This document shows positions 11,014 to 60,077 of a stretch of 64,000 nt of DNA, piece after piece. Origin of the DNA: Massospora cicadina (lineage: Eukaryota; Entomophthoromycota; Entomophthoromycetes; Entomophthorales; Entomophthoraceae); NCBI GenBank assembly GCA_022478985.1, contig JAKSZP010004223.1:52636-116635 (forward strand). The letters are read 5' to 3'. Position 1 is the stretch's first letter. Each line of letters opens with the position of its first letter. A program made the position numbers and the translations under genes. Under the pieces are notes generated by a model. It was given only the letters and a program-made list of their open reading frames with translations. It made no database searches and was not told the origin of the DNA.

Positions 11014-13172
11014 ATGGGATCAGAGGGTTCAACTTTAAAGCGCAAGAGCCACAAGAAAAAAGTTGGATCCACCAAGCATCGGAAGGTTCACGCAAATGGG
11101 AAGCATTCAAACCGAGCTGGTCAGTTTAACGGAATCCTCTATTTTAATGTGGTAACTTAATTAAAACCTACCGTTTAGTTTCACCCGTCGAAGAGGTACT
11201 CCCCCTAGAGAGTTGGCGTCGGAAAGCTCTCACCTCATTTCTAAGGCGTCCAAAAGTTTAAATAATTTTGTTGGGCCTTTGAGTAAGGCATCCGATGCGG
11301 TCAGCGAAACTCCTCTATTTCTATATCCCCTGAAGTCAAAGAAAAAATTAATCGTGCAAAAGTTAAGGCAAGATCAGGTATGGTTCTTTATTACACCGAC
11401 ATCATAAGTTTATCTAAGGTCTCCTCTAGTTCAAAACTTTTTGAACTTCTGTTTGGCCTTAGATTTATATAAAATGTGGTTTGGAACAAAACAGATGCCC
11501 TATAGTGCTAATTTAATCAGTGACGGGATTTAAGAATTCATTTGGAGTTTGGGCCTATGCTGTCCCATGAATTTAAAATTTGTGTATTTTATATCTTTGC
11601 AGCCTTTTGGACCAAGTTGTTAAGCAACTGGATTCTATACGATAAACGCCACAATTTTTTGCCACGGGAAAGCACTTACAAAGAAAAAACAACTTTCATC
11701 TAGTACTAAAAAAAAGAAAAAACACCTTTAAGCCAAATTTAAATTTTAGTGGTTTTTAATTAAGAGAAGCTTGAAGCTCATTTCTTAAGCATCTTTACAG
11801 AAAGCATACTTACTATCACATTAGAAATCGGTTTATATGACTGGGGGAAGAATAGATATTGCACGATGGAATGGGGAACTAGGCCCGGCGTTGATACCTT
11901 ACCACGGATCAGTTACGGCTTGACTTCTAGGCAAGAGTTCATTGATAAATCCGAGCGGCCCAATCTACCAGTTATAATCTGCGGTTTGACTAAACTATGG
12001 CCCGCACACGTTCATTGGAACGCCGAGGTATTGTTTTTACTATGCGGCCTAAACCTTTAGAGCCTATTTCGGAACTACGGGAACCAGAAGTTTAAAGTTG
12101 GAGAGGATGATGGTGGCAATAACGTGTATCTCAAACTCAAGCACTTTCTCCCCTATTCGGAGCATGAGGCGCCTCACGATGATAGCCCGCTATATGTGTT
12201 TGATTCCGCTTTCAGTAAAAGCCTCTATTTCAAGCAGCCTAGGCCATCCAAACTAAGCAAACTTGATAAACCGATGGGGCTGGCTAAAGCCAGACTTCTG
12301 GATGATTTCTTTGTACCCAAATACTTTGATATTGACCTGTTTGAATTGACTGGATCAAGGCGTCCTCCACACCGTTGGTTAGTTATGGGTGGCGCTAGAA
12401 GCGGTACACAGTACGCTCACTCTATAACTATATTCTAACCTTCCAAAGTATCCATATAGATCCTTTGGGTAAGCGTTTGATTTCGTTGGTGAGGTTTTGA
12501 TCTGAACCAGGGACCAGTGCATGGAATGCGCTGATCAGAGGGCACAAGAGGTACCCTTCAATTATATTTGAGGTTAATTTTACAGGTGGGCCCTTTTCCC
12601 ACCAAACACACCCCGCAGCTTGATTGATCCCCCAAGAGAAAGCGGCGAGGCAGAAGGGATCACGTGGTTTGCAAAAGTGTTTCCCAGATTTCGTTTTCCA
12701 GCTACCATTTCAAGCAGGCTGACACCTGAACAGTTTGGGGATCCAATTTTAGACCCAACTTTAGGCCAATGCTTGGGTATGGTTGAGGCCTTACAGCGGC
12801 CAGGTGAAACTATATTTGTTCCTGGTGGATGGGCGCATGTGGTTATTAATTTAGGTTGGTTCTCCTTAGCTACGCATACTTAGTTTTGGTTTAGACTTCA
12901 CTATTGCCATCACTCAGAACTTTTGTTCGCCAACGAACTTGGAGTATGTATACCTCAAGGCTAGATTCTCACGCCCCAAATTTACCGCCAAGCTACTTTT
13001 AAAACTTGAATGGTTGGCCAGCTTATCCCCTAAGGATATCCAACCTCCCTACAATTACTATCCGCCCATATTTTATCGGAGGCTGGTTGAGGATATTCAT
13101 ACCCTCCAATATGTTCCAGCCCTATTTACTTCCTCTGAGGGTTCATCTTCCTCCTCTGATTCTGATTCTTAA
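11014..13172 (+). CDS. JMJD6: JMJD6-like JmjC-domain Fe(II)/2-oxoglutarate oxygenase (eight exons)
   Basis: Exons: 11014-11119, 11288-11377, 11825-12027, 12061-12410, 12449-12468, 12511-12550, 12586-12854, 12895-13172. All introns are GT-AG, the lengths sum to 1356 nt and the frame is kept (451 residues). A basic N-terminus is followed by the family signatures NQKFKVGEDD, DDSPLYVFDS, RRPPHRWLVMG, RSGT then HIHIDPLGTSAWNAL, GHKRW, GITWF, PGETIFVPGGWAHVVINLD and TIAITQNF. H252 and D254 (the HxD motif) and H354 are the expected iron ligands. The C-terminus is a short serine/aspartate tail, as in animal JMJD6. Family members are nuclear lysyl hydroxylases of splicing proteins; arginine demethylation is also reported. 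The exon 1/2 junction is the least certain part. Five introns are 33-42 nt; introns 1 and 2 are 168 and 447 nt. Confidence 0.92.
11680..11729 (+). mobile_element. Micro-retroposon R1 (16-nt insert) in JMJD6 intron 2
   Basis: The insert CATCTAGTACTAAAAA (11697-11712) sits between two 17-nt direct repeats, 11680-11696 and 11713-11729, which differ at one position (AAAGAAAAAACAACTTT versus ACCTTT at the end). It carries the same 3' end as the inserts at 32222, 33163 and 60014. Direct repeats plus a terminal A-tract are the hallmark of target-primed reverse transcription. The A-rich target makes this the weakest member taken alone. Confidence 0.65.
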
Positions 13173-13554
13173 CCCAACCTATTAAAATATTGTTTTAGTA
13201 GAGATGCTGTAACTGGAACCAATACTGTGCTACCCCTTGCTTAAACTATCTGTTTAATTCCATTTGTATCGCTTAAAATGGTTTACATTTAATTGCATAT
13301 GCTAGCAATTGCCCAACTCAAGTTTAGAATTATGCTTAGGGTTATAGGATTGGGATATAATATGTGAAGTGGTTGAGCTTAAAAATTGACAAATTTGGCC
13401 TGTGTGCTATACTAACATTACATTATTTGATTTTAGTTTACCTTCTCATTATTAAGCTAAATTGGTGTTTGATCCGCCAATTTAGGAAACTGGGCGCCAA
13501 TATTTCTAGGGCATGGTCAAATGACTATACCTTTATACTTTTTTAATTTTTTTC

Positions 13555-13690
13555 TACTCGCTGTGGTGTCTGTTTATGTGGTGGAATCTTGCTATTGATT
13601 TTCAACTACCTTCCAGACTAGCTAAGCTTTGAAATTTGGCGCAATCATGTATCTTTCATGACAATACAATAATCCATTAATAAAATTTAA
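13555..13690 (-). repeat. Inverted copy of the repeat family that lies upstream of JMJD6
   Basis: Read on the - strand, this contains the same core as 9851-10775: TGGATTATTGTATTGTCATG, then AAATTTCAAAGCTTAGCTAG and TCTGGAAGGTAGTTG, ending with CAGACACCACAGCGAGTAG. The JMJD6-like gene therefore lies between oppositely oriented copies of one repeat. Confidence 0.8.
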
Positions 13691-13762
13691 AATGTCTTAA
13701 AACGTTTTCTTTAATTATAAGCTTGTTTAAAAATTCAACTCACTTAAATGCCCACCTTTCAG

Positions 13763-13895
13763 TTTATCAAAATGTAATAGCATTTTTATAGTTTTAAATA
13801 TCACTTTCTCAAAATACAATGAGATTTTTTATAATTTTGAATATCAGTTTCTCAACATGTATTGATGATTTTAATAGTTTTAGATATCAGTTTTT
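13763..13895. repeat. Short degenerate tandem repeat, about 50 nt x 3
   Basis: Three imperfect units follow each other. Each has a TCTCAAAATRYAATG-like start, then a run of T/A containing ATAGTTTT or ATAATTTT and ending in AATATCA or GATATCA. The units start near 13763, 13811 and 13850. No function is visible. Confidence 0.5.
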
Positions 13896-15912: not shown

Positions 15913-16584
15913 TTTAATAAACAGGTTTGTGCCAATATGTGACAAACGAGTTGGGCAGCACCAGCCATGTCACTGACCACATGACTGATAATCCTGTGGA
16001 GAACCACCCTCCAACCCGCATGCCATTTCAGAATTCTTGACATACCTGTGGACTAAAGTTCCGTTGATGCTGCAAGCAAGCAGTAAGGCCTGGCCCCAAG
16101 ATAGTACCACAAATGAGGCCAATGCCTGGCCTAGCTCACTTGTTGAGTTCATCATTCTGATTGTTCTAACCAAAATTTCAATTTAAAATAAAACTAAATT
16201 TAAAACAATCAATCTGAAATTTTATTATACTTTTCCTTTTGAAAAAATGAAATTATATTTACAGTTGCTGTTCCCTCATTTTTAAAGCATTTTGATAGTT
16301 TAAATTATTAAAATCCTAGATTAGGCTTTCAAGTGACATCCAAATTATTGCTTGCAAAAGTCTCATATCCCATAATAAAAATTTGGAGGTTTCAAGACAC
16401 CAGTCATTCAATACTCTGGATCAATCCTCAATCTAAAATCCCTGAATTCTTATCTACAATTTCCATCTCTAGTGGTTTTTCTGATTGGTCCAACTTTCCA
16501 AATCTGACCTTTGAATCTGTGTGCAAATTTAAACCAATATTCACAAGGTCAATGAGCGAATCAGGCTGGCCCCAATCCAACACA
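15913..16584 (-). repeat. G1 3' LTR
   Basis: This 672-nt copy matches 20803-21473 along its length, for example GAGTTGGGCAGCACCAGCCA and TCTAGTGGTTTTTCTGATTG. The last ~52 codons of the G1 polyprotein frame lie inside it. Its low-coordinate terminus has drifted (TTTAATAAACAGG against TGTAATGCACAGG in the other copy). Confidence 0.9.
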
Positions 16585-17002
16585 TCACCCTCTTGTAAAT
16601 CCAGAAACTTTCTGATCTTCTCAGGGCAGCGTGCACACTCCTCTGGTGTTTGCCAGGTCACCTCCTTCACTGGATATCCTTTCCATTTTACCAGAAATTT
16701 CTGGTGACCCCTGACCCAACGCTCCCTCGGAATTTGCTTGTTCACATATTCCTGGTTGTCCTCTTCCCATGGGTTCAGTGGCCCAGGCACTCTGGTCCCT
16801 GCCCCCAGAATCCTCAAAGTTGTGAACCATGGATAACTGAATGAGCCCTCAATCCTTCCAGGAGGTCCAATTCAAATGCCACCTTGTTAACAACCCAAAT
16901 CACCCTATAGGGGCCTAATAACTTCAGTCCAAGTTTCTGGCTCTTTACTGGTACTGCATAATTCTTTGTTGCCACCAATACCAAATCCCCTGGAGCAAAC
17001 AA
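16428..17002 (-). pseudogene. G1 integrase C-terminus and chromodomain
   Basis: The upstream part has the integrase C-terminal fold signature (PGDLVLVATKNY ... KLGLKLLGPYRVI) at 17002-16870. A frame change near 16815 leads into a chromodomain: KFLVKWKGYPVKEVTW, then EKIRKFL. Chromodomains on chromoviral integrases steer insertion to marked histones. The frame runs through the polypurine tract and ends at 16428 inside the 3' LTR. Confidence 0.85.
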
Positions 17003-17020
17003 TGGGTCTGGCGCTCTTTG

Positions 17021-17942
17021 TCAATCTGCATACCATTTTTGCCATACTGTGGTGCGCTCCTGGTTGTTTTGCAATTTTCTTCCAATTTTGGTCATTCTTT
17101 GGGATAATTCGTTTACCCCCTGGCATACTCCACCGTTTGATCCCCCATCCAACGCTGGATTGGATCCATGATTAGCAAAAAATGGTGACATTCCTGTCAA
17201 CAATTGGTGGTGGTCATTGTAAGCAAACTGAGCAAGTCTAATCCAGGTAATCCAAACATCCTGCCAATCTGAGATATAGCATTGGAGGTATTGCTCCAAT
17301 ATCTTGTTTATCCTCTCTGTTTGCCCATAGGACTGGGGATGGTATGTCAAAGCCCTACATGGGCGAATCTTAAAATTAAAAGCAGACTTGACCAGAATTT
17401 TGATATAAATTAAGTTTGCAATCCAAAATGATCTCTGCCATTAGGCCATAAAAGGCAAATATCTCATAGATAAAAACCCTTTCAGTTATCCTAACTGAGA
17501 ATTTTGAGGTACATGGGAAAAACTCAGCATATTTTGTTAACTTATCAACAACAACTATTATTGCATCCTTCCCCTGGATCTTAGGTAACCCCATAATGAA
17601 ATCCATGCTAACTGAACCCCACGGCTGACTTGGAATTTGGAGTGGGACTAATTTACCTGTGGGCTGCTTTTGTGAGGGCTTCAAACATGCGCAAATCAAG
17701 CACTCTTACCACATATTTTTAATATCCTTTTGCAGTCTGGCCCATGAATACTTCCATCGCGTCAAGTCAATCATCTTCACAACCCCTGGATGTCCCACCA
17801 GCAGGTGGTCATGCGATGCCTGCAGCACTTCCCACTGCTGTGATGGGTTCAGAACCCATATCCACAAGTCATGATATATAATCCCATTTTTCTTTTCATA
17901 TGTATGATGATGGCTGTGCCATTGGCCCTCCGCCATTTCCAC
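17021..17942 (-). pseudogene. G1 integrase: zinc-binding and catalytic core (broken)
   Basis: The N-terminal part (17942-17706) contains the HH region (HDHLLVGHPG). The core follows at 17699-17376 (PWGSVSMDFIMGLP, first catalytic D) and 17350-17021 (YHPQSYGQTERIN with the catalytic E, then LAQFAYNDHHQ). The middle D block around 17390-17440 is decayed, reading LDCKLN where relatives have SDRGP. Frame breaks lie near 17700 and 17360. Confidence 0.85.
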
Positions 17943-18255
17943 CTATTAATTACTGTCCAAATAGTGTCCTCCTTTGCTTTCTTTGGATCTCCCCTTCCAG
18001 TTCATCCTCTTCACTCACAATCATGGCAAAATTGATCTTCCTGTAACATGGTTGCTGTGTTATACTTCTCTAACTCAGCCTTCTTTTAGGCTAGCCCTGC
18101 ATCCCAGCTCAACTAATCTGCAATGGTGTTAACAGCTTCTGGATGGTATTTCACTCAGAAATCATACTGAGCCAGCTCCACGTGCCAACAGGCTTGGCGC
18201 TGATTCATTTTGCTGGGCTTGCAGTAATATTCCAGTGCACAATGGTCTATACATG

Positions 18256-18642
18256 CTACAAAAGGATGATGGGTGTACAACAAGTGGTGCTGCCACTTCT
18301 GCAGCGCTGCAATGACCGCCAGTAGCTCTTGTCATATATTGGGTAATTTGTTTCCTCAGGAATCATTTTCCGGCTGAAATAACACACTGGTTGCTCCAAT
18401 ATGTCCTTCCCCTTCTGTAAGAGGACTGCTCCCACAGCAAAGTTTGAGGCGTCTGTCTCAACCATGAAAGGTTTTCCTGGATCTGGATGGGCAAGGACCA
18501 GCACCAAAATGAGCTTCTCTTTCAGAAGGTTGTATGTCCGCTTTTCTTCCCCCCATATGAACAGTACAATCTGCATTAGTCGTGTAAGTGGCAAGGTTAA
18601 CTTCATTAGATTTTTGATGAACCGCCTGAGGAACTTTACCAT
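18256..18642 (-). pseudogene. G1 RNase H region
   Basis: It shows FLRRFIKNL, then LAHPDPGKPFMVETDASNF (first RNase H catalytic D), AVGAVLLQ and YFSRKMIPEETNYPIYDK, the usual end of RT plus RNase H in gypsy elements. The frame fails after about 18320. It degrades the RNA strand of the hybrid in an active element. Confidence 0.85.
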
Positions 18643-18704
18643 TCCCAGAAAACTTATTTTCCTGTCTGATCAATTGGAGCCTTCCATGCATGCACCGCCT
18701 GGAT

Positions 18705-19510
18705 CTAATCTGGGCATACCTCCAGGCCTTTTCCAAATATCACATCCCCTAGGAACTTGACTGACTCCTGGTTAAACTCACATTTTGAAGGCTTCAGCTG
18801 TAATCCTGCCCCAGCCAATGCCTTCAGGACCTCCCACACATCCCATACATGAGCCTCCTTGGAACGTGAAAACACCAGGATGTCATCCATATTAGAGATA
18901 CAACATCAGCCAATTAACTAACAGAGTATTCATCTAATCATTCATTGAAATACCGCTGGGGCATTGCGCAGCCCAAATGGCATAACTTGATATTGGAACA
19001 TTTCAAGGTGGCACTTGAATGCCGTGTATCTTTGGTGCTCCAGCCTCACAGGTACCTGGTTGAATGCGTCTGCTAAATCAAGCTTGGTGAAAATGTTACA
19101 TCCCATGACAATTAACAAGAATTCTTCCATTAGTGGCATTGAGTAAGGATTCGGCTCCATGACTGCATTTAACCTTTGGTAGTCCATGCATGGCCATAAC
19201 TCTCCACTTGCCTTGGGCACTAGCAACACCAGAGATACCACATCTGATTTTGATGGATCAATAAAACCTTCGCTCAACATTGAATTTATGTGGTCTCCAA
19301 CGTAGCTTTGGCTCTTTCATTCAACGGATAAACTGGGTATCCACGGGGAAGTTCTGAACCTTCCTTAAACTGGAAAGAGAATGCAAATAGCTCTGTGTGG
19401 GAAAATGGCGAATCCCTTTTTGGACCAAAGACACCCACAAAATCTTGGTATTCTGCGGGTAAGACCTCTTCCTGCATGGCCCTCAGGGTTTGAGTCATAT
19501 CTGAATTCAT
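18705..19510 (-). pseudogene. G1 reverse transcriptase (broken)
   Basis: The linker PAEYQDFVGVF ... GYPVYPLNERAKATLE (19510-19286) precedes RT blocks LVPKASGELWPCMDYQRLN, FTKLDLADAFNQVP, YTAFKCHL and MPFGLRNAPAVFQ (19280-18942). A ~50-nt disrupted stretch follows, then MDDILVFSRSKEAH with the catalytic DD near 18885. A frameshift separates the palm motif from the preceding block. Confidence 0.88.
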
Positions 19511-19564
19511 GTTTCACACTAACATCCTCCACCTCATTGGTGGACCCCTCCTTGGGTATAAGAG

Positions 19565-19860
19565 TTAAGGTACTGGAAGGCATATCGATCTGGGGTCTAA
19601 CTGATGCCACCACCACATCACAAACACTACTGGGTGGGTCAGGTTCTCAATTGCACAAAACTGCGTCCAGAATTTGAATGGGGCCTGCTGTACCTTCACT
19701 GAGGGGCATACGCGCCATGATGGCGCCCTCTGTGAGGCATTGGCAAATACCACCGCCAGTCCTTCCTGCACCTGCAGCTTCAAAAGATCTGACAATGCCA
19801 GTTCAAAATAATTCTATTCTGCCCCAGTATCTATCAGGGCCATTGCCCTTTCCATTTCCA
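19565..19860 (-). pseudogene. G1 aspartic protease (in-frame stop)
   Basis: The catalytic motif ALIDTGAE is encoded at about 19820-19840 and is followed two codons later by TAG (19813-19815). LALSDLLKLQVQEG and a hydrophobic flap-like stretch come after. The G6 protease (LVDTGAEENYLDYGLAKKM) has the same spacing, which supports the assignment. It would process the polyprotein. Confidence 0.75.
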
Positions 19861-19916
19861 CATCTATATGCAACTCTATGGGGATAAACAGTCAGGAATA
19901 AAGCAAAGAAGGCAAT

Positions 19917-20629
19917 TTATTTTTGAATGAGTCTTTCACTTGAAAATTGGATGATGGAGGATTTTGACATATTCCCTTGTCGCCCTCCCCCTTGAACATT
20001 TCCCACATTTTTTTGGGATGAGTGCCACCGCCCTTGACTGGAACGGCCACTTACTGGGGATTGTCTCTTCCCTGGTAACATTAATTCCTCCCGCCAATCC
20101 TGTGCCAGTGCTAAATGTTTTTTGACTTGATCTGCTAAGGCCACTTTCTCCCCCAGCGTAGCTTAGACCTTTGCAGCCACCAAGGTTGCCAGAAAATTTT
20201 CCTGCAACCCCTGGCGGAACATTTGTGAGGACTGGTAATCAATAACCTGAGCTGCCTTTGCCAGTGGATGGAATACCCGCGCATACTCCTCTGCAGAGCT
20301 ATAACCCTGACTGACTGTTAATAGTGCCAACCAGGCCTCATCTTTTGCTTCATCAGAAATGCCACCTGGTCAATTAACTCCATATACTCCTCCATAGAAT
20401 TTGGCAAACTATCCTGTTCCTTGATGATTCCTGGAACCTTCCCACTAATTCTGGGGGTAATGCATCCACCACTTGGGCTAGTTGGAGCCCTAGAGGGGAT
20501 ACCCCCTGTCGCCTGTGCTAACCATGCCTGGAAGCGGATCTGCGCCATTACTTGGTGAAGTTTATCCAACGCCTTTATGGATAACGCCACTTGAATGGTG
20601 GGTGATTTAGGTTTCGCCTGGATGACCAT
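19917..20629 (-). pseudogene. G1 gag region (broken)
   Basis: The N-terminal segment (20629-20318) has the IRFQAWLAQATGG motif, which resembles VKLQAWLTTASGG in G6 gag. A second segment at 20144-19917 is basic. No CCHC knuckle is visible. Frame changes separate the parts. Confidence 0.6.
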
Positions 20630-20802
20630 GGTTTGCTAAGTTGTTGCCCCCTTAATTGTCCCACTTCACATAACAAAAATGCAACAAAAATCCCACCATA
20701 ACCACGGTCAAGAGATGTTAGTTCCATTTCTCTCCATTGGTAACCACCACTTCTTCCTGGGGCCCCAACAAGATGGAGAGAAAGGTATTTGAGTTTTGTT
20801 TA

Positions 20803-21473
20803 TGTAATGCACAGGTTTGTGCCAATAATTGACAAATGAGTTGGGCAGCACCAGCCATGTCGTCACCCACATGACTGATAATTCTTCAGAGAACCACCCT
20901 CTAAATCATGCGCCATTCCCAGAATTTATGATGTATTTGCAGACTAAGGTTCCGGCAATGCTGCAAGCAGGAAATAAGGCCTAGCCCCAAGATAGTGCCG
21001 CAAATGAGGCCAATGCCTGGCCTAGCTCACTTGTTGAGCTCATTATTCTGGTAAATTTGACTGAAATTCCCTTTAAAAGTGAAACTAAATTTAAAACAAG
21101 CAATTTGAAATTTTATTGTAGCTTTCCTATTGAGATGATGAAACTGTATTTACAGTTTCCATTTCCTCATTTTTAAAGCATTTTTTCTAGTTTAAATCAT
21201 TAAAACCCTAGATTAGTATTTTTAGTGATATAAATTGTTGCTTATGAAAGTCTTGTATCCCACATAACAAAAAGTCAGAGGATTCAAGACACTGGTTGTT
21301 CAATATGCCAGATCAATCCTCATTCTCAAATCCCAGTTCCTTACTTGATTTCCATCTCTAGTGGTTTTTCTGATTGGTCCAACTTTTCAAATCTGACCTC
21401 CAAATTCGTGCATAAATTCAAACAAATATTTATGAGGTTGATGTGTGGATCAGGCTGGCCAAGATCCATCACA
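20803..21473 (-). repeat. G1 5' LTR
   Basis: This 671-nt LTR runs TG...CA on the + strand (TGTAATGC to CATCACA). The bases just inside it, read on the - strand, are TAAACAAAACTCA. This is not a TGG-type tRNA primer site and resembles the same position in G6 (TTAGATAAAACTCA). Confidence 0.9.
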
Positions 21474-21478
21474 ATACT

Positions 21479-22120
21479 TACTCCTAAAGGAAAATCAAGT
21501 GACACTGAGAAAATTAGAACTATTGTCTCCTGACCCTATAGCCAAAATACCAGCAAAATACTCAGCTTCCTACAAACTTTCAGTTACTACTACTCCTTCA
21601 TTCCAAATTAAAGTCAGATCTCTGCATCATTGTGATTTATTCATAAGAAAGGAGCCACATGGAAACTTGATTGCACTGAACAGCTCAGTTTTGACAAAGT
21701 GAATAAAGCAAAGACCTGAGCTCTCATATTAAATTTTCTCAAATTTTGAAGATGCATTTCAAGTATACACTGACATGAGAAATTTTTGCCCTTGGAGCCA
21801 TATTGACTAATTCTTATATGAAAAATATCTGCTTATCAGATATATTTTTTAAGAAATTAAGTCCCATCAAAATCAATTATTCTACATTTGAAATGCTTAA
21901 TTGCCATTGTTTATGCTCACCAAAAATTCTGATATCATTTGCTGGATTCAGGTGTCACTACTTACGCTAAGTATCTAACTTATTCTTTTTATTCAACAAC
22001 CCAATCCCTAGCAGCCACTGAATATGATGGAGATACAAACTAACGGAATTCATTGTAAAATTTGTACACCTCTCTGGGAAGCTGAACACCATGGCCAATG
22101 GTCTCTCTCATATCCTTCCT
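21479..22120 (+). pseudogene. G2 end of RT and RNase H (decayed)
   Basis: Reading resumes with TPKGKSSDTEKIRTI, the block after FLGH in gypsy RTs. SFIPN-like remains follow, then an RNase H remnant ending EFIVKFVHLSGKLNTMANGL at 22048-22107. That matches the usual RPGKLN.MADGLSR end of RNase H. Many stops are present. Confidence 0.7.
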
Positions 22121-31410: not shown

Positions 31411-32207
31411 TGGAAAAGCGTGACAGAGCCCCCTTAAGCCTCAACTGGTGGTGATGCATTGCCTGGGTTGAATAATTTTGCATTCATCATTAATGGCTTG
31501 GGAGTATCTTTGAACTTTGTTTGCCCCAGGCGGTACCAAACATCAGGTTTGAGAGTATATGTCAATAAAATGCTTTGGTGTAGTCTCCCTTAGATAGAGT
31601 AAAGTTTTTGGTATGATGTCAGAACCTAGTACTAGATTGAAGCATGGCAAAAATCTGGGTTTTGGGTGATGCACCACAATAGATAGTTCAGTTATGCATG
31701 ATTCTGTTGTGGACAAAGTAGAACTAGTAATTTTTGAAAAAGGGTAATACAGATTTGAAGATCATCTTACCATTAGCCCCTGGAATTCTAGACCACCAAA
31801 AATTGGCAGCAGCGGCGATGAAATCCATATTATTCCACCAAAGTGGGCTTGTCTTTCTGCTTGAACCAATTAACTACCTCACCGCCCAAAATCTTAAATG
31901 GTAAAGTTGGGGGAGGTTGACTAGGGCATTGCAATATGGAGCATGGCTTGGATCTTGCTAAAAATTTTATGATCCCTATGGCTGAGCTTGGCGTGCTTCT
32001 GGGATATATTTTTGGATGGTTCAATACCAGCCACTTTATATAGTTTAACGCTAAATTGGGGAGGCCTCTAACTTGGCCTGACATTTAATAGCCTAACCTT
32101 GTTTTCTTCAACAATGATAAGATTTAAAGGATCTGAGGCAGATTTTACACTTGTTAATTTTAAGGTTTTGATAAAGTGGCTTGTATTTGATATAAAACAT
32201 TAATCAA

Positions 32208-32266
32208 CAGACCAAGCTGTGCCTTGGGTTGGGACCATCTAGTACTAAAAAACAGATCAAGCTGTG
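32208..32266 (+). mobile_element. Micro-retroposon R2 (31-nt insert)
   Basis: The insert at 32222-32252 starts CCTTGGGTTGGGACCATC and ends AGTACTAAAAAA. It is flanked by CAGACCAAGCTGTG (32208-32221) and CAGATCAAGCTGTG (32253-32266), 14 nt with one difference. Its 3' end is identical to R1 and R3, and its upstream part matches R4. Confidence 0.85.
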
Positions 32267-33145: not shown

Positions 33146-33200
33146 AATAGTATGAAGACTATGGGACCATCTAGTACTAAAAAAATAGTATGAAGACTAT
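33146..33200 (+). mobile_element. Micro-retroposon R3 (21-nt insert) with perfect 17-nt duplication
   Basis: The insert at 33163-33183 consists of GGGACCATCTAGTACT plus five A. Both sides carry the perfect repeat AATAGTATGAAGACTAT (33146-33162 and 33184-33200). The empty site can be read directly from the flanks. This is the cleanest member of the family. Confidence 0.92.
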
Positions 33201-45645: not shown

Positions 45646-46023
45646 AACACAAAAATCTGCGCTATCATAGACATGGGAGCACCTGTGAACATAGTCTCCA
45701 CTCAGTTGGTGGCTAAACTTATGTTGAAACTGGATGTGGACCATCGAGTAATATATGGGACCACAGGAATGCACAGCACTGTGTCAGAAGGAGCATATAG
45801 CGCGTTGCCTCTACAATTTGGGTCAGTCCAGGTGTCCGCTCCAGCGGTGGTTTTGCCAAATAACCATTATGATATGTTAATTGGTGCAGCTTTTATGAGG
45901 AAATTTGGCGTTGTGATAAACATGGTGGAAGAAACCCTTACTATGTTCGGCCAACAAATTCAGTATATTTTTCCTCTGGTGGAATCCCAACGGATCCAGT
46001 CCACCCTGGTCAGGTCAATCTAG
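45646..46023 (+). pseudogene. G4 aspartic protease
   Basis: CAIIDMGAPVNIVSTQLV carries the active-site region, with DMG in place of the usual DTG. The G5 copy of the same gene keeps DTG. NNHYDMLIGAAFMRKFGVVI is the distal ILG-like block. A TAG at 45627-45629 separates the frame from the preceding part. Confidence 0.8.
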
Positions 46024-46499
46024 CCTACAGTAACAGAGTGATTCCTGTTTGCTATCAGCAATTGAGTCAGTGGACTAGGATCCTCCCCAAACAAATATAT
46101 GAGTACAAAGGAATCCCGCTTCAAGCAACGCGCGCTTTAAGCCTACTGTCTGGACACCAGAGCTTAGTAGGGACTGGGCTGGAAATCGATGTCCCTAAGG
46201 GGCTGCATGGAGAAATTATGGCGCCTCACCAGTGCTTGCGGCTCAAACCACATGTGGCTCCAGGGTTACTGCTGCCTGGGAATGGGGAGGTGAAGGTGCT
46301 GCTAGCAAATCTACAGAAGAAGGCAATAATGATCTGGTGGCACCAAGTGGTGGCTTACCTACAATTCATCCCTATAGAGGAAGTTCGTCATATTTATGAT
46401 TTTGGCTTATGGGAGGATCTTGGACTATTGGCTCACTCCTTGTTCAGCGTACTGACCGTGGTTCCACGGGAAGAGCTCACGGGATTATCAGTGGAATAA

Positions 46500-47400
46500 C
46501 AAGATAAGGATATGGCATTATTTGAAAAGTATCAGGATATTTTTGCAAATGATAATCGTGACCTGGGGTGTGCTCAAGGGGTGGTACATCGGATAGATAC
46601 AGGGGGATCACCCTCCCATTTGTTCACAACCTATTAGATGTTCAAAAGCAGCGGAAGAGGTTGTCTCTGATGAAGTGGATAAACTTATTGAGCAAGGAAT
46701 GCTAGAGCCATCAAACAGTCCGTGAGCATCACCTAAGCTCATCGTAAAGAAGAAGGATGGCTCAAATAGGGTGGGTATTACCTATTGTAAACTTAATAAT
46801 GTAATGAAGAAGGATTCCTACCCTTTTCTGCGGATTGATGATGCGTTATACCAATTGGGCGGGGCGAACTAATTACCACCATGGATCTGATCTTGGGATA
46901 CTGGCAGATCAAATTGCCATTAGTGGAATGGGAGAAATGTGCGATCATCACCTCAAGAAGGTTTTTCTAGCTGACTCAAATCCCGCAAGGGTTGTGTAAC
47001 GCCCCAGCTACGTTTCAGCATGCCATGGATACAATTTTAGGCAATTAAAAGCTATCCTGCGTTCTCGTTTACCTTGAAATCAATGTGTTTTAGTGGACAT
47101 TTACAGAGCACCTGGCCCACTTGGAGCAAGTGTTTCGGCGCCTCGCTGCCTCTAATATCAAAATCAAGCCACAGAAGTGTCAATTCTTTAAAGCAATTGG
47201 AATACCTCAAGTTTGTCATGGATTCAAATGGGTTTAAACTGCAGCCAGCTAAAGTGGAAGTGATAGGCTAGATGACTCAGCCAGGAATAAGTGGGACATT
47301 CAGGTGTTTCTGGGGATGGTTGGGTATTACCAATGATTCATTCCAAATTTCAGCTGCATTGGGGCCCCGCTTTTCGAGTTATTAACGAAAAACGCTTCTT
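46500..47400 (+). pseudogene. G4 reverse transcriptase (broken)
   Basis: Recognisable blocks are IDKLIEQGMLEPS-like sequence near 46680, KLIVKKKDGSNRVGI near 46735-46780, a decayed palm block near 46960-47010, and VLVYLEINVF near 47060-47085. There the catalytic YxDD has become YLEI. Multiple stops lie in between. Confidence 0.75.
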
Positions 47401-47438
47401 TTGATTGGACAGAATGATGCCAAAACACTTTCAATGTA

Positions 47439-47855
47439 TTGTGTACCGCGTTAGCAAGCACACCCATTTTGCAATATTTGAACTTCGATAAACAGTTCAT
47501 AGTACAAACTGACGCATCCCTCGCTGCTATTGGGGCAGTATTATCCCAGAAGGATGATGATGGCGTGGAACATCCTGTCACATTCTGTAGTCAAATTTTG
47601 AACTGTCACGAACAAAACTACACTGTAACTGAGTGGGAGTGTCTAGTGGTGATCTACGCTTACAAACAGTTTCAGGTATATCTGCATGGGGTGAGATTCT
47701 TAGTAGTGACGGATCACGCTTCCTTGCAACGGCTACAGAATCTTCATGAACCGGAAGGACAGCTCGCACGTTGGGCTCTGAAGCTGCAAGCATATGATTT
47801 TGAAAATTTACACCGACCAGGAGCAAAACATCAAAACACAGATTGTCTTTCTTGA
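47439..47855 (+). pseudogene. G4 RNase H
   Basis: An intact stretch of about 138 codons: LNFDKQFIVQTDASLAAIGA, HPVTFCSQILNCHEQNYTVT, CLVVIYAYKQFQVYLHG, VVTDHASLQRL and HRPGAKHQNTDCLS. The catalytic D/E/D residues appear present. It ends at TGA 47853-47855, where CGA is a plausible ancestor. Confidence 0.85.
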
Positions 47856-49087
47856 TTGCCCACGGTTGCTATCATGGCGGACCTAGCTGATATAATGTAC
47901 AAAAAGATGGTGGCGACCAGATACCAAGATGAGCCGCTGCAGGTGATCAAGGTGTTAGATGGACTCAGGGAGAATACCTTTGTACAAGGGGAAGAACCAT
48001 ACAAGCATATCAGAGACTTGACGTTGAATTTTCCTAAGCCTTCAGCTAGACCCTCAATAATTATGGATGCTCATCAGGATGTTGGACATGGAGAATTTTG
48101 GAAGACACTAGACTTTTTGCGACCCTAATACTTCTTGGAAAGCATGCATTATGACATATTGGAAACGGTTAGTTGTTGCCATCAGTGTCAAGTGGAAAAG
48201 CCTTTCTGCAAGAAAACCACCTACCAACTAGTGAAACCCCAGTTCACATGGCACACCGTTTCCACTGATGTAGTGGGGCCTCTGCTGACTAGTGCCAATT
48301 AATCCAAGTATATAATTGTTGCCATCAATCATTTGACTTGATAGGTGGAGGCTAGGGCTATTAGCAACTTGAAAGCAGTCACCACTGCCAAGTTTATTAT
48401 GGAGTGTGTTATACAGTGGCATGGCTGCCCGTAGTTCATTCTGACAGACAATGTAACCAACTTCAATTCCCATATCCTGCCAAAGTTAAACGAGTTGATG
48501 GCGATTTTCAGGGTTTTGACCACCCCCTATCATCCGGAATCAAATGGGATGGTGGAGCAAGTCTTTGGAACCATATTGAACATACTCCGCAAATTGATAA
48601 TGGATCGGCCCTCAGAATGGAGTGCCCTTCTACCTACTGCTGTGTTCACCTATAATATCAGCTATCATTATGCCACTGGTAAGAGTCCGTTTCAACTGCT
48701 GTATGGTTGACATCTGGCTCTGCCTGCCTTGCTATATTCGTGTGTAGAGGACACTAGTTGTGTGAATTCAGCAATATCTGAAGCAACTCAAAGATACATT
48801 GATTAAGTTGCAAATGGAAGCCTGCTCCAACAGTTTGGCTAAGAAGATTCACGACCAGGCAGCTGACCAGAAGCGCCGGAGTGGACTTCCATTGTTTGCT
48901 GTGGGGAACTATGTTTTATTCCACGACCAGCATGGATTTGGATGAAATATAAAGCTCTAACATTTGGGGTCAGCCCATTCAAGATTATTGAGAAGATTGG
49001 CATGGATGTCTACACAAATAAGGAACTCGCTGGGTGTCAGACTATCAACCAAGTCCACGCAAAGTTCCTTCAAGCATATAAACAGTA
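47856..49087 (+). pseudogene. G4 integrase (broken)
   Basis: Zinc region: H residues near 48070 and CCHQCQVEK near 48175-48200. Core: HTVSTDVVGPL (first D, near 48260), FILTDNVTNFNSH (second D, near 48435) and YHPESNGMVEQVFGTI (E, 48528-48580), then WSALLPTAVFTYNISYHYAT and GKSPFQLLYG. The C-terminal part ends HAKFLQAYKQ at about 49087. Stops and frame changes are frequent. Confidence 0.82.
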
Positions 49088-49119
49088 AGAGCCTATCATC
49101 TAGTCAAAGGGGGGCATAA

Positions 49120-49597
49120 TATCGGGAAGTTGATATGACTGGATGATACACTACCCCTATTGGTGGATTGGAGGGGGATCGAGATGAGTCTCAAGATTTG
49201 CAAAAAATGGATACACAAGATATAATCAAGCAAAATGAGGACATAGGGTGAATTGAGAGGATTTATGCTGAGATTTGATACAAATGAGATAGTTTGAAAA
49301 GGGAAGAAGAATAGAAGATTACCAAGATGAGGATGCATCCAGTGGGGAACTGAGGTATAAAGAGTCTTATGAAAGATTAAAGAGGGGGTCTTTTGAAGAG
49401 GAAAGGGGAACGCAGAAAAGTCTGTGATTTATACCAAAGAAATAAAGGTAGAAATAAGGGGCAATAGCTCCATATATATTCTATCAAAGTTATTAATAAG
49501 TCGGCGATCCTCATATCATCTGATTTGGTTGCTCAGTGGCTCATACCCTGTGCAAAACCAACTCGGCAGAATTGAGCTCAGACACCAAGAATTTACA
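49120..49597 (+). repeat. G4 3' LTR
   Basis: It follows the purine tract at 49105-49119 and matches the 5' LTR over its full length. Its first dinucleotide is TA rather than TG. Position 49598 starts the ACAGG flank and the interrupted G5 integrase. Confidence 0.9.
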
Positions 49598-49602
49598 ACA
49601 GG

Positions 49603-51700: not shown

Positions 51701-51899
51701 GTGGATTGGCCTTGACCTGATGGGAGGATGCTCTACAGTGTCCAGCCTATGAACCACCCCCCGTGCACATCCTAAATCGTGGTCATTTACAGCAAAAATC
51801 CCTTTATATTTTTTGAAATAAAGCGATTGCCCTATCCTTCTGTGGTTCTGAAAGCACCATTAACTTTTCATGCAATACAACGGCCTTTACATTGAGCTG

Positions 51900-53167: not shown

Positions 53168-53757
53168 GAGACCAGTTGATTAGGGAACCATCATGCCAGA
53201 TGCCCCTGACGACTGCATTTAAAATAGCTAACACCATAGGGCTCACGCCCTTGATTAGTGTAATACAAACCACAATGAGAGTAAAGCTGGAAGTGATCAG
53301 CATAAACAGGTCTAGGGCGATTTTTGGCCCAGGGAAAATAAGCAGGAATGGGTTGGACGTTTAACTGCTGATGATAACCTGGTGAAATCTGCACTGGACT
53401 GCCAGTGTTCCCCAAATATGATGATTCAGCAGTTATAGCAGAAGGACTCTGCTCAGCATTAGGTGGAGGGATGTTGACTGATATACGGTGCAAAAACAGA
53501 ACAACTTTAAGCAAAGGTACATCTTCATCTGACAGTGTGGCCATAACGTTATGTAACTCACATTATGGCTTTACAACAGAAGTCATCGCAATACACACAT
53601 CTGATTCAGATAAAATTTCAGCCCCAATTAGCACATGAGCTTCTGCCATAAATTGCTCAGCAAACGCGGTGAAGGTCTCATTCCACTGAAACGTGATGAT
53701 CAAAAATTCAGTCTTCCAATGTGAAATTTTTGCAGTTCCGCTGAACAACCAAAGCAC
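53168..53757 (-). pseudogene. G5 gag, part distal to G6
   Basis: FAEQFMAEAHVLIGAEIL (53690-53630) matches G4 gag FAEQFLAEAHVLLGANIL. Near 53200 the knuckle remnant YFKCSRQGHLA has lost its first cysteine. The piece starts at the G6 insertion point; the rest of gag is at 60078-60459. Confidence 0.8.
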
Positions 53758-54746
53758 TGTAATGGTCAAGGCCTTGCCTGACCATTAAATTGCCCTAATC
53801 TTCCCTAGGGCAATAGTCAGGGCCAGGGGAGAGGGGCTCAAACGAACCAATTATTGTAAATGGCAATCTGATGAATCAGATGCCTCAAAATTGGAAGCAA
53901 AATCGAATTGAAAGACTGACAGGGAAGGGAAGCCTTGGAAATGGCGCTCTAGCCAGCCAGATGATGCCAAATCCAATATTGCTAAATGCGGTGATGAGGG
54001 ATCAGACCCTCAGATGCGAATTTCTGGCCAATCAGAGGTGGCTGAATCCATTGCTTATGGGAGTATTGACAAGGATGAAAATCCTTGTGAATGGCACTCT
54101 GGCCAACCAGATGCCGCCGATCAAAATTTTCCCAAAAGAGGCAATAAACCAATATCAGTGAATTTGGGTGAAAGGAACAGCCTGGGCTTTGAGAGCAAAT
54201 TGAAACTAAATTAATAAATGTGGAAAAGTTTCCGCAACCCTGAGGGTACCCAGCCCAAGTTTGAGAATGGGTCTCAACGCCAAAATCGAGGGTCTAGATT
54301 CTCAAATAGGCCCACCGCTGGGAAGATGCTCACGGACTTTGCAGGAACAGGACCCGCTCTTCCCCAATAAGCTCAGTATAAATCTGAGCAGGCGAAACTG
54401 TGTAAAGCAGTTTCATATTCTGTAATTCAAATAAAACTTAATAAATTCGAAAACTAGTTTTGCGCATTTGCAAATCAGTTTATTAAGAAAACCTGGAAAC
54501 CCCCTCATGGACAGCAGTTCAGACTTTGACAGGGCCATCCAGTCCTTGTACGCCCTCTCTGGGGTCAGACCTTCCTTCTGAGCGCCAGCATTGTCTTGAC
54601 TGTGGCCCAAACCTTCGTGGTACAGTGGTTTCTGCATAGTCAGATTTGGGATCTCTCCACAGCAGGGCTATCCTGCCTGTGGGCACTCACTTGGGCACTC
54701 TTGCCTAACTGCTTTGTAGCAGTTTTCAGAGACCCCATCCGTCACA
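53758..54746 (+). repeat. G6 5' LTR
   Basis: It starts TGTAATGGTCAAGGCC, ends CCGTCACA and matches 59020-60005 closely. The next bases are TTAGATAAAACTCA, with no TGG primer site. Confidence 0.95.
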
Positions 54747-54766
54747 TTAGATAAAACTCATTTAAT

Positions 54767-56089
54767 TTGATGTCTTTATTCCTAGACATGGTGGACAAGC
54801 CATCTGAACGCGCCCTGCCTGCGTGGTATGAACACCCAACCGCATGTTTGATGGTCATCTTCTCTCTTCTATTTCTCCTAAGAGAAGTCGCCCGTTTCCT
54901 TCCCTCCAAGGGGCATACCAACGTCTACTTTCAATCTGAGCAGTCCGCGTCTGAGTTCTGACAGGCCCTCACCCCAGGAGAGTTGAGCACCTTACATGCC
55001 ACCTTCTCGCATGTGAAACTCCAAGCCTGGCTGACCACGGCGTCAGGAGGAACATCCCCAGTGTCACTTCAGATTGCCCAGATAGTAACCGCCCTTCCCA
55101 GAAACCTAGCGGATTGGTTCACTGAGCTACTGGAAACCCAGACTATGCTCCCTCCCACCTTGGAGGAATGTCTTCAACTGGTTGAGAGAGTGTCTATGCC
55201 AAATGACTCCCAAGACGCTGCGTGGTCCGCCCTTCTGAATCTAACTCAATGAAAGATTTTAGTCATTGAGTACGCCCATGTGTATCGCCCTTTGGCCAAG
55301 GCTGCCAAGGTCACCACTACTCAGATAGCACGAATGTTCCGCCAGAACCTCCGCCCAGACATCCTTACAGCATTGGCTGCCACTCGCCTGGGAGCTACCC
55401 TCAATGAGGAGATTTCAATTGCGACCCAGGTGGAGGGCCAACTAGCATTAGCACAAGTGAAGGCCCATACCGGAGCACAACATGGGAAGTTCCGTGGCTG
55501 CTGATCCAAGTCTGAGCCAGTCTCCAACCCCTCGCAGGAGTCCACGCAGGGTTCGCCCTCTGGCTCCACCAATGGGGTAAACCCTTCAGGAAACCACAGA
55601 GAGGGAAACCCTAGTCCCTCCTACAACTTCTGCACCACTCCTGCGCGCGTTGCTACCATCAATAAAGGAAATACCTCGTCTTATCTCTATGTCCCCTATT
55701 CATTACAGCTCCGGGGAAGAAAGAGGGAGGATTAGCTTTGGGCGCTGGTGGACACTGGAGCGGAAGAGAACTACCTAGATTACGGGTTAGCAAAAAAAAT
55801 GAGGCTGGAAATGGAATGGAAGGGAGCTGTAATGCTGGCAGACACCTCAAAAACGGTTAGCAGTTGGAAAATCAAGACCCAGGTGCTGCTGCAGCAGGGG
55901 CCTCACACCTTCCAAGAGTCATTTAGTGCCATTAAAAATATGCCTCATCCCATAGTCCTGGGCATGGAGTGGTGGCACAAGTACTCCCCCTCAGTTCAAA
56001 CTGCAGGAGCGCCTGGTCTTGCTACACCCCAAGAACCAACCCCCAGTGGCACTAGATTCCTTCACCACTGGCAAAGGAAGCCTGGGTGA
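54767..56089 (+). pseudogene. G6 gag and aspartic protease (one frame, four internal stops)
   Basis: A single frame runs from 54767 to 56089, interrupted only by TGA at 54959, 55250 and 55502 and TAG at 55733. Gag shows VKLQAWLTTASGG, LADWFTELLETQTMLPPTLE and IARMFRQNLRPDIL; no CCHC knuckle is seen. The protease follows with LWALVDTGAEENYLDYGLAK (near 55738-55795) and HPIVLGMEWWHKYSPSV, the ILGM block. Gag and protease in one frame is common in chromoviruses. CGA to TGA changes would explain three of the four stops. Confidence 0.85.
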
Positions 56090-57080
56090 ACGCAGTAGTA
56101 GGGCTGGAGACGGAGGCGGACATACCCAACGAATTTCGTGCATATGCTCACCTGTTTAAGAAGAACCAAGCTCCCTCTACCACCCCAAACGGTCCTTACC
56201 TTTTCACCTTCAGGTTCAAAAAGGATGCGGAGTTCCCCAAGGGTTGTCCTGTCTACCCTTTGAACCTTAAGGCGAGGGCGGCCCTTGAGGTCTATGTCAA
56301 GGAAATGCTGGAGCGCGGGATGATTGCTCCATTAATTCGCCAGTGGTGTCGCCAATACTCCTAGTCCCAAAAGTAAGTGGCGAGCTTCGCCTGTGTGTGG
56401 ACTACCGGCGGCTGAACGCAATCACCAAGTCTGACCCCTACCCCATCCCGCTGATGGAGACCATCTCTCAGATGATCTCAGGTAGCCAGGTTTTCACCAA
56501 GTTGGACCTGGTTGACGCGTTCAACCAAGTTCCAGTAATTGCCAAACAACAACAATATACGGCTTTCAAGTGCCACTTAGGAGTCTTTGAGTACAAGGTG
56601 ATGCCCTTTGGCCTCAGGAACGCCCCAGCAGTATTCCAACGTACCATAGACAACGCCCTAGGAAACCTGATTGGAAAATGTTGTGTAGCGTACATGGATG
56701 ACATACTTGTGTTTTCCAGAACCGAGGAGGACCACAAAGGAGATGTGCTAAGCGTGCTGGAAGCCCTCAACAAGGCGGACCTTCACTTGAAGTCATCAAA
56801 ATGCGAGTTCTACAAGGACTTCGTCTCCTTCTTAGGGAACTTAGTCTTCCAAAAGGGAACAGCCATATGCCCGGAAAAGCTGAAGGCAGTAAGGGAGTGG
56901 TCAGTCCCTAAGGATAGAACGGGCGTTAGAAGTTTCCTGGGCGTGGTGAACTTCCTAAGGAGGTTCACAAAAGACCTTTCCAAGATGGCGGCCCCCCTAA
57001 CTCGCCTGACAGGGCAGGTCCTGTTCCATTGGGGAAAAGAGGAGGAGACATCCTTTCAGGCCATCAAGGAGAGCCTATGA
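56086..57080 (+). pseudogene. G6 reverse transcriptase (one frameshift)
   Basis: The linker FRAYAHLFKKNQAPS ... GCPVYPLNLKARAALE is in one frame and shifts near 56340 into the main RT frame. Blocks: LLVPKVSGELRLCVDYRRLN, FTKLDLVDAFNQVP, MPFGLRNAPAVFQRTIDNAL, VAYMDDILVFSRTEEDH (intact YMDD, near 56690-56705), KSSKCEFYKDFVSFLG and FLGVVNFLRRFTKDL. All catalytic aspartates are retained. Confidence 0.92.
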
Positions 57081-57976
57081 AGGCACCAGTACTAGCCCAT
57101 CCTGACGCCAACCGTCCTTTTATAGTGGAGACTGATGCCTCCAACTTTGCAATTGGGGCAGTCCTGCTACAAGAGGGAGAAGATGGGGTAGACCATCTCG
57201 TAAGCTACTTTAGCAGGAACATGCTTCCCGCTGAGACCAACTACCCCATGTATGACAAGGAGCTCTTAGCGATTGTATCAGCCTTGGAGGAATGGCAGCA
57301 CCACTTACTCTACGCCAGACATCCCTTTACTATCAGAATGGACCACCGAGCCCTCAAATTTTACAAAAGCTCAAAGCGCATGAACCAGCGCCAGGCCAGA
57401 TGGCACCTAGAGCTGGCGTCTTATGATTTTAGGATTGTGTACAAGCTGGGGGAAAGCAACCTCATCCCAGATCTCTTAAGCAGGGACCCAAGTAAGTCCT
57501 TCTTTAGGGAAGAGCTGGACGCATACAACACCGCCACTATGTTGCCCTCAAATGTGTTCGCTGTCATCCAGAATGCCACCAAGGAACTGAGGGAAAAGCT
57601 CCAGGCCGCCCAGCAAAGCTCAAAGTATGAGGCAACGCTGTGGAAGGACCTGGAGGAGGGGGTAGAGAACAAGCAACATAAGAATTTCTTTAAAAGGAAA
57701 GGCCTCATTCTCCACAAAGGGCGCCCATGGCTGCCCAACCGCGAGCTCCAGGAGGAGGCGATAAGCACTTTTCATTACCACCCATTGGCGGGACACCCTG
57801 GGAATGAAAAAACAATAGAGCTCCTGGCCCAAAGTTACTCCTGGCTGGGGATGCCCAGCGCCGTGAGAGAGTACATCCAGATTTGTGTCACATGCGCCCA
57901 TTCCAAGCACGTTAGGCAGAAGCCTTTAGGAAAACTCAAGCCCTCCAGATTGCGGAAATACCATGGTCCTCACTGA
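57063..57976 (+). pseudogene. G6 RNase H and integrase zinc finger
   Basis: The RNase H has PFIVETDASNFAIGAVLLQE, YPMYDKELLAIVSALEEW, IRMDHRALKFYKSS and LGESNLIPDLLSRDP, with catalytic residues present. A spacer follows, then the integrase H2C2 finger: HYHPLAGHPGNEKT and ICVTCAHSKHVRQKPLGKL. The frame differs from the RT frame, so a frameshift lies near 57060. TGA at 57974-57976 breaks it before the core. Confidence 0.9.
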
Positions 57977-58778
57977 GTGTGGACTTCATAACGGGGCTTC
58001 AAAATCAAAGGGATATGATGCTGTGATGGTGGTGGTAGACAGAATGACCAAGTACAAGGGAATTCTTTCCTTGTAACTCCACCATCACAGCAAAGGGCAT
58101 GGCGGATATCTTTGTTGATGAGGTGTTCGCCTGCCATGGTCTACCGGAGGAGATAGTATCAGATAGAGGCCCCCAATTCATCGCCTAATTTTGGCAACAC
58201 CTACTCGAAAATCTTCAGATCAAGCCATGCAAATCCTAAGCTTACCACCCGCAGTCTGATGGCCAGACGGAACGAGTTAACCAAGTCCTCAAGCAGTACC
58301 TGAGATGCTACATGACTACACAACAGGAACGCTGGACGGACTGGCTAAGACTAGCCCAATCTGCATATAATAACTTGACCCATTCATCAACAGGAATGTC
58401 GCCATTCATGGCAAACTACGGTTCCACCCAAAGATGGTGGAAACCCACCCCAGAGGTCCAAATTCGGCGGCCAATGACTTGGCAACAGAAATGAAGGATA
58501 ATTTGAAATTCCTGCATGCAAACTTAGTCAAAGTGATAGAAATGCAGAAGAGGAAGGCTGACACTCACCGATCCAAGGCCCTGGAGCTAAAGGAAGGAGA
58601 CCTAGTGATGACCAACGCGAAAAACTACTCAGTGCTGGCAAGCTGTAGGAAATTTGGACCAGTCGCTCTGGGCCCATTCAAAGTCAACCACCAGGTAAAC
58701 AAAGTGGTGTACAAGCTTGAGTTCCCCAAGAGATTGCGGGTGCACCCAGTGCTGCATGTCTCGCAACTTAGGAGTTAA
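57960..58778 (+). pseudogene. G6 integrase core and C-terminal domain (broken)
   Basis: SVDFITGL (first D, near 57980), EEIVSDRGPQFIA (second D, near 58150-58185) and YHPQSDGQTERVNQVLKQYL (E, 58240-58300), then AQSAYNNLTHSSTGMSPFMA. The C-terminal part at 58434-58778 has LKEGDLVMTNAKNY, FGPVALGPFKVNHQVNKVVY and RVHPVLHVSQL. At least three frame breaks are present. The core keeps all three catalytic residues. Confidence 0.88.
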
Positions 58779-58814
58779 AAGGCCCCTCTCCCAGAGAAAC
58801 CAGAGCCTGTCCAC

Positions 58815-59182
58815 TCGGTGGGAAACCCGGGAGAGGCGGAGTACGAGGTGGAGAGATCTTGGAGTCAAAAATCTCACAGAGAAAGCACTGGTACCTTGTC
58901 AAATGGGTAGGCTAACTGGTGGAGGAGTCCACCTGGCTGATGGCCGATGATTGCAGCAACTGCCCACTGAAGGTCAAGGAGTTCTGGAACTGGAGGGGGC
59001 TCTCACCTGGGGAGGGTGATGTAATGGTCAAGGCCTTACCTGACCATCACATTGCCCTAATCTTCCCTAGGGCGATAGTCAGGGCCAGAAGAGAGGGGCT
59101 CAACTGCACCAATTATTGTAAATGGCAATCTGACAAATCAGATGCCTTGAAAATCAGAAGCAAAATCAAATTGAAAGGCTGA
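58815..59182 (+). pseudogene. G6 chromodomain, frame running into the 3' LTR
   Basis: The frame reads HWYLVKWVG, a TAA at 58913-58915, then LVEESTWLMADDCSNCPLK and VKEFWNWRGL. YLVKWVG and the E-STW block define a chromodomain. The frame passes the polypurine tract (GGGGAGGGTGA) and ends at 59182, 54 codons into the LTR. The same arrangement is seen in G1. Confidence 0.82.
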
Positions 59183-60005
59183 CGGGAAGGGAAGCCTTGG
59201 AAATGGTGCTCTGGCCAACCAGATGCTGCCAAATCCAATATTGCTAAATGTAGCGATGAAGGATCAGACCCTCAGATGCAAATTTCTGGCCAATAGGAGG
59301 TGGCCAAATCTGTTGCTTATAGGAGTATCGACAAGGATGAAAATCCTTGTGAATGGCACTCTGGCCAACCAGATGCCGCCGATCAAAATATTCCCAAAAG
59401 AGGCAACAAATCAATATTGGGGAATATGGGTGAAGGGAATGGCCCAGGCTTCAAGAGCAAATCGAAGCCAAATAATAAATGTGGAAAAGTTTCTGCAACC
59501 CTGAGGGTACCCAGCCCAAGTTTGAGAACAGGCCTCAACGCCAAAATTGAGGGTCTAGATTCTCAAATAGGGCCCGCCACTGGGAAGATGCCTGCGGACT
59601 TCGCGTGAACAGGACCCGCTCTTCCCCAATAAGCTCAGTATAGATCTGAGCAGGCGAAACTGTGTAAAGCAGTTTTGTCTTCTATAAATTTAAATAAAAC
59701 TTATAAAATTTGAAAATTAGTTTTGCGCATTTGCAAATCAGTTTATTAAGAAAACTGAAACCCCTCATGGACAGCAGTTCATACTTTGACAGGGCCATCA
59801 GTCCTTGTACGCCCTCTCTGGGAGTCAGGCCCTCCTTCTGAGCGCCAGCATTGTCTTGACTGTGGTCCAAACCTTCGTGGTACAGTGGTTTCCGCATAGT
59901 CAGATTCAGGATCTCTCCACAGCAGGGCTATCCTGCTTGTGGGCACTCACTTTGGCACTCTTGCCTAACTGCTTTGTAAGTTTTTCAGAGACCCCATCCG
60001 TCACA
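59020..60005 (+). repeat. G6 3' LTR
   Basis: It matches 53758-54746 along its length, with many transition differences. Shared words include GGACCCGCTCTTCCCCAATA and AAACTGTGTAAAGCAGTTT. Its last 9 nt are part of the R4 target duplication. Confidence 0.95.
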
Positions 60006-60077
60006 AGCACCATTTTTTTAGTACTAGATGGTCCCAACCTGAGGGGGGGATTCATTGATGTCCGTCACAAGCACCAT
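59997..60077 (-). mobile_element. Micro-retroposon R4 (47-nt insert) at the G6/G5 junction
   Basis: The 17-nt repeat TCCGTCACAAGCACCAT is present perfectly at 59997-60013 and 60061-60077. The insert between (60014-60060) is in - orientation and ends GGTTGGGACCATCTAGTACT plus A-tract on that strand, as in R1-R3. It is the longest member and gives 26 more bases of upstream sequence. The duplicated target includes the end of the G6 LTR and G6's own AGCAC, so R4 came after G6. Confidence 0.95.

Follow-up and report, generated by a model that had tools for sequence, protein, structure and literature searches.

Ultrashort retroposed insertions with a common 3' tail in a 64-kb stretch of the Massospora cicadina genome

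Introduction

The stretch of DNA considered here, called the window below, comprises 64,000 nucleotides (nt) of the entomophthoralean fungus Massospora cicadina (positions 52,636 to 116,635 of the forward strand of contig JAKSZP010004223.1 in assembly GCA_022478985.1). Within it lie an L1-like long interspersed nuclear element (LINE), a JMJD6-like gene, a gypsy (Ty3) element and at least four insertions of 16 to 47 nt. These insertions end in the same CATCTAGTACT followed by a short run of A, are enclosed by direct repeats of 16 or 17 nt, and constitute a real family of ultrashort retroposed insertions.

Four genomes of the entomophthoralean group exceed 500 Mb and contain 71–92% repeats, and the share given for L1 LINEs in M. 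cicadina is 6.3% (PMC11105155). Among open-licence papers, judged by title and the start of the abstract, we found no description of such a family, which may have been published elsewhere. The word SINE (short interspersed nuclear element) is absent from the main text of the Entomophthora muscae genome paper (PMC11105155).

Results

The scans for copies described here covered the 64-kb window. On its two strands, exact CATCTAGTACT occurs at four sites and no others, and these sites are the four insertions; in 4/4 the motif is directly followed by an A run, and motif and run together are enclosed by a direct repeat. Insertion 1 (11697..11712, + strand, 16 nt) consists of CATCTAGTACT and 5 A, and stands between the 17-nt copies of a repeat with one mismatch (11680..11696 and 11713..11729). 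Insertion 2 (32222..32250, + strand, 29 nt) has 25 nt before 4 A and a 16-nt repeat, also with one mismatch (32206..32221 and 32251..32266). Insertion 3 (33163..33183, + strand, 21 nt) has 16 nt before 5 A and a perfect 17-nt repeat (33146..33162 and 33184..33200). Insertion 4, the longest, lies on the - strand (60014..60060, 47 nt), with 41 nt before 6 A, and its 17-nt repeat is again perfect (59997..60013 and 60061..60077).

An earlier note, made from the letters alone, had reported four sites sharing a 3' tail and A tract at these positions, with inserts of 16, 31, 21 and 47 nt and repeats of 17, 14, 17 and 17 nt. We find the same sites, and the same lengths for copies 1, 3 and 4. For copy 2 we measure a repeat of 16 nt and an insert of 29 nt, the discrepancy arising because two A can be assigned either to the tail or to the repeat. 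The reported upstream agreement of the two longest copies is also borne out: copies 2 and 4 are identical over 26 nt, that is, GGTTGGGACCATCTAGTACT and then six A, preceded by CCTTG and CCTCA, respectively.

The four insertions thus show the features by which retroposons made by target-primed reverse transcription (TPRT) are recognized. A target-site duplication flanks each of them (4/4), the 3' tail is A-rich (4–6 A inside the insert, or runs of 6–8 when the A of the repeat are counted), and the 3' end is common to all while the 5' ends all differ. When the repeats are pooled, 2/67 positions are mismatched, one in copy 1 and one in copy 2, and by this sign these two copies may be older.

By itself, the number of CATCTAGTACT sites departs only mildly from chance: 5 sites with no more than one mismatch were observed, against a mean of 0.95 in 100 shuffles, of which one reached 5. 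It is the enclosing repeats that set the sites apart. Duplications no commoner than around random sequence had been named beforehand as a finding that would speak against the family; a repeat score of at least 13 was obtained at 4/4 exact motif sites, compared with 11/2000 random positions. Only 6/332 tracts of 5–8 A attain this score, namely the four insertions and two tracts at 62 kb, inside a tandem array. A further scan was for short inserts, defined by a length of 8–150 nt, a repeat score of at least 13 and an A tract no shorter than 4. Of its 12 rows, 5 belong to the four insertions (one being listed twice with different boundaries) and 7 lie in the array, so that outside the array every insertion passing the scan has the same tail. 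In dinucleotide shuffles, the scan returned no row in 58/60 cases and one row in 2/60.

Broader scans led to the same sites. Among repeats beside an A tract with a gap of up to 8 kb, the insert is shorter than 150 nt in 4/17 rows, which correspond to the four insertions. With up to 4 mismatches allowed in the tail, 72 sites were found in the window, 7 of which pass the repeat filter: the four insertions, two sites that echo copies 1 and 3 on the opposite strand, and position 410, where the repeat has 10 nt and was not counted as a copy. No further acceptable copy was present among the 72. Exact repeats of at least 13 nt with a gap of 10–200 nt gave 28 rows, of which 18 fall in the 62-kb array and 5 in a repeat family at 9.9–10.3 kb; the others are one inside a long terminal repeat (LTR), insertions 3 and 4, and the pairs 8923/9068 and 30924/30976. 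Insertions 1 and 2 are missing from this list because of their mismatches, and the last two pairs, which have no A tail, were set aside.

Two of these places may be described in their own right. The tandem array occupies 61814–62395 and has a unit of 75 bp. At 30924–30988 there is a 13-nt direct repeat with a gap of 39 nt and no A tail, which looks like a local duplication.

Insertion 4 lies at the edge of the gypsy element, which extends over 53753–60010 including its target repeats. The left LTR (53758..54746, + strand) has a single LTR end, is followed by internal sequence and carries no insert, and the right LTR (59020..60005, + strand) is the one whose end has been duplicated by insertion 4. 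Both LTRs start with TGT and end with ACA, and they differ at 83/982 compared sites. The 5-bp target repeat AGCAC adjoins the left LTR on its outer side (53753..53757) and follows directly after the end of the right LTR (60006–60010).

In insertion 4, the 17-nt repeat joins TCCGTCACA, the 9 nt with which the LTR ends, to AGCACCAT, 8 nt of the flank made up of AGCAC and 3 more nt. Since this repeat spans the junction between the LTR and AGCAC, the insertion is younger than the gypsy element. Moreover, the repeat requires that the gypsy element had already landed, and the left LTR has one intact end; the duplication was therefore made by the insertion and not inherited. The direct repeat of insertion 4 is a true, new target-site duplication. 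As for the gypsy element itself, its reverse transcriptase and RNaseH regions are in different frames, and the matches in a protein search include fungal proteins.

Insertion 1 probably lies inside an intron. A JMJD6-like gene occupies about 11.3–13.2 kb, and its protein, an approximate query assembled by eye, matched 166 proteins; among the 120 matches listed, the first named is from Neoconidiobolus thromboides, with 50% identity. Compared with an E. muscae protein, the identity is 68% over the aligned part (125/185 positions). By this single gene, the window belongs to an entomophthoralean fungus distinct from E. muscae. In the reverse comparison, the E. muscae protein matches the window strongly from 11824 on and weakly at 11317–11391 (E 0.006). 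Reading by eye gives GT at 11378 and AG at 11823–11824, which bound a putative intron 1 (11378..11824, + strand) whose upstream exon is the weak match. From these matches and splice signals, insertion 1 is probably within intron 1 of the gene, in the sense direction. A short dispersed repeat family surrounds the gene, with several direct copies upstream (9867–10739) and an inverted relative downstream (13582–13691).

The L1-like LINE is represented by the frames of ORF1 and ORF2 at 2256..6254 (+ strand). ORF2 is split over two frames, 3485–5374 and 5310–6254, with reverse transcriptase in both. In ORF1, a CCHC-like motif was seen by eye and no Pfam match was obtained; the endonuclease-like region scored 24.4 in Pfam against a cut-off of 24.5. 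Against solved structures, human L1 ORF2p is the best match of ORF2 (E 2.2e-36), followed by another RNA-directed DNA polymerase (2.1e-25) and by R2 proteins (8.6e-15 or weaker). The likeness indicates that an L1-like enzyme class is or once was present in this genome, which implies nothing of its role at the four insertions.

As a parent of the insertions this LINE was rejected: it lacks the tail, and two stretches near its presumed ends have no exact repeat longer than 9 nt in common. Nor was a target repeat found around those ends. The earlier note had stated that no parent is in the window, and our search of it agrees. Exact patterns derived from the inserts had 0 matches in IMG/VR and in a collection of bacterial and archaeal genomes, which is no surprise for a repeat of fungal origin. 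The inserts have no Rfam match at the gathering score; with E up to 10, copies 2 and 4 gave weak matches (E 0.32 to 9.9), none convincing. The copies are too short to include a SINE head, which would be related to tRNA, 5S or 7SL RNA and carry a pol III promoter. One of the weak matches, 16 nt long and to HBV_epsilon, crosses the left junction of insertion 2 at 32212–32227; with E 0.32 it falls well short of the gathering score and is taken as chance. Part of the tail may resemble 5S rRNA, a likeness that we do not claim.

Discussion

What process could have produced these insertions? An A tail, duplications of a single size class, and a 3' end common to copies whose 5' ends are ragged together point to TPRT. 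We consider that at each of the four sites the 3' end of one kind of RNA was retroposed, through TPRT by a LINE-type enzyme that stopped very early, and assign this reading a probability of roughly 0.75. The earlier note had likewise proposed TPRT with strong 5' truncation. That proposal fits the evidence of the window, where the repeat of copy 4 is shown to be new; its enzyme is the inferred part, as are the nick chemistry and a parent RNA longer than the copies. The source RNA would end in GGTTGGGACCATCTAGTACT and a short A tail. A LINE-type enzyme, probably L1-like, would nick the target, and the A tail would pair with T at the nick, where reverse transcription would begin. Copying would end after 11, 16, 25 or 41 nt of template, and a cut of the second strand about 16–17 nt away, with gap filling, would generate the target duplications.

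Several points weigh against this reading. The nick sites it implies are TTT/G, GTT/G, ATT/A and CAT/C (flanks read by eye, with boundaries blurred by A shared with the tail), and they do not match the L1 consensus TTTT/A. It should be noted that T precedes the nick in 4/4 and that every repeat starts with A, which is partly by construction, because choosing the longest repeat assigns to it A that may belong to the tail. Short A tails, of 4–6 nt (6–8 once the repeat's own A are included), are a further point. In folding, the 47-nt insert does not surpass shuffled sequences (z 0.88), so a 3' recognition hairpin, which was considered for copy 4, is unsupported. In addition, the one LINE copy of the window does not end in the tail, neither a parent RNA nor a longer copy was found in the window, and the support comes from four copies in one window.

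LINE-driven truncated retroposition is known in principle, and what is unusual here is the shortness of all the copies seen and their single, recurring source. Human 5'-truncated L1 and other LINE insertions share with the four a common 3' end followed by an A tail, 5' truncation to varying lengths, and target duplications. The target duplications of human L1 have a median of 13 bp with quartiles of 10 and 15 (PMC12016303). Their A tails have medians of 39 nt (somatic) and 34 nt (germline) (PMC12016303), whereas the four insertions have 4–6 A after 11–41 copied nt. In Aspergillus fumigatus, AfuSINE2 and AfuSINE3 are likewise short non-autonomous fungal retroposons, and AfuSINE2 has short flanking direct repeats (PMC5063351). 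However, AfuSINE2 is 140–493 bp long and tRNA-related, with repeats of 4–14 bp (PMC5063351), while the four insertions measure 16–47 nt and no head is seen. Human class 1 templated sequence insertions also bring in RNA from elsewhere with a target duplication and an A tract (PMC5110952). Unlike the four insertions, with their one recurring source and short tails, they have TTTT/A sites and 10–40 A, with AATAAA 10–20 nt upstream (PMC5110952); AATAAA is absent from the 41 nt of copy 4, whose A run is 7.

How short are the copies, then, by the standards of known elements? Under an exponential model, the copied length has a mean of 23 nt with a 95% interval of 11–85 (n=4). The medians for human elements are 394 bp for somatic L1, 1240 bp for germline L1 and 320 bp for Alu (PMC12016303). 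The comparison with the truncation lengths of known LINEs, which had been suggested at the outset, gives copies far shorter than these medians. Four copies all of no more than 41 nt have a probability of 2e-5, 3e-7 and 5e-5 under exponentials with the medians of somatic L1, germline L1 and Alu, respectively, values to be taken as orders of magnitude only, given yardsticks from human, which is another kingdom, four events and a window picked for its oddness.

These figures bear most directly on the possibility that a normal LINE or SINE family underwent ordinary 5' truncation, with longer copies elsewhere and four of the shortest in this window. As 5' truncation is the rule for LINEs and the parent was not found within the window, such an origin is conceivable, but all tail-bearing sites in the 64 kb (4/4) are no longer than 47 nt, and with the above probabilities we regard it as somewhat unlikely. 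A source RNA that is itself tiny, about 40–100 nt and perhaps a 3' fragment left by processing or decay, copied wholly or partly with no unusually early stop, would be consistent with copies averaging 23 nt and with the interval around that mean. Four different 5' ends speak against it, since at most one copy can then be full length, as does the lack of an Rfam match, though copies this short would seldom give one; a tiny source is the less likely of the two. Short inserts would also arise if filler DNA were used to repair double-strand breaks, with no part for LINE machinery, and short templated fillers are known as human class 2 templated insertions (PMC5110952). However, those events are described in that paper as having no target duplications or A tracts, whereas both occur here in 4/4 together with one 3' end, which makes filler repair very improbable. 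A motif arisen by chance, with repeats around it that are likewise fortuitous or are local tandem duplications, is hardly credible in view of the repeat scores, the nearly empty shuffles and the LTR junction inside the repeat of insertion 4, although the mildly raised motif count could be cited for it.

A retroposon lineage may exist that normally yields insertions of about 15–50 nt, its RNA being reproducibly copied for a few dozen bases only, which we put forward tentatively. If it is true, introns and intergenic DNA would contain a hidden layer of insertions that repeat finders leave unannotated. The genomes of two relatives have sizes of 655 Mb and 1.03 Gb (PMC11105155); if the window is typical, with 4 insertions per 64 kb, genomes of 0.655–1.03 Gb would hold some 40,000–65,000 copies, a plain scaling that would overestimate the number if the window holds more than its share. 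If general, the process would give large fungal genomes many insertions the size of small indels, each with a duplication of 16–17 nt. Such insertions could serve as phylogenetic markers, and would form a natural set of very early reverse transcription stops for studying why LINE copying ends.

Other repeats in the window

At 15915–21488 and 42249–49597 lie two further sets of long repeats, spaced about 4.89 and 6.87 kb, respectively; gypsy-like frames lie within the first, and both are perhaps older LTR elements. In addition, 41370–41762 and 60463–60857 are two copies of one repeat, about 89–90% alike and 19 kb apart, which are perhaps solo LTRs.

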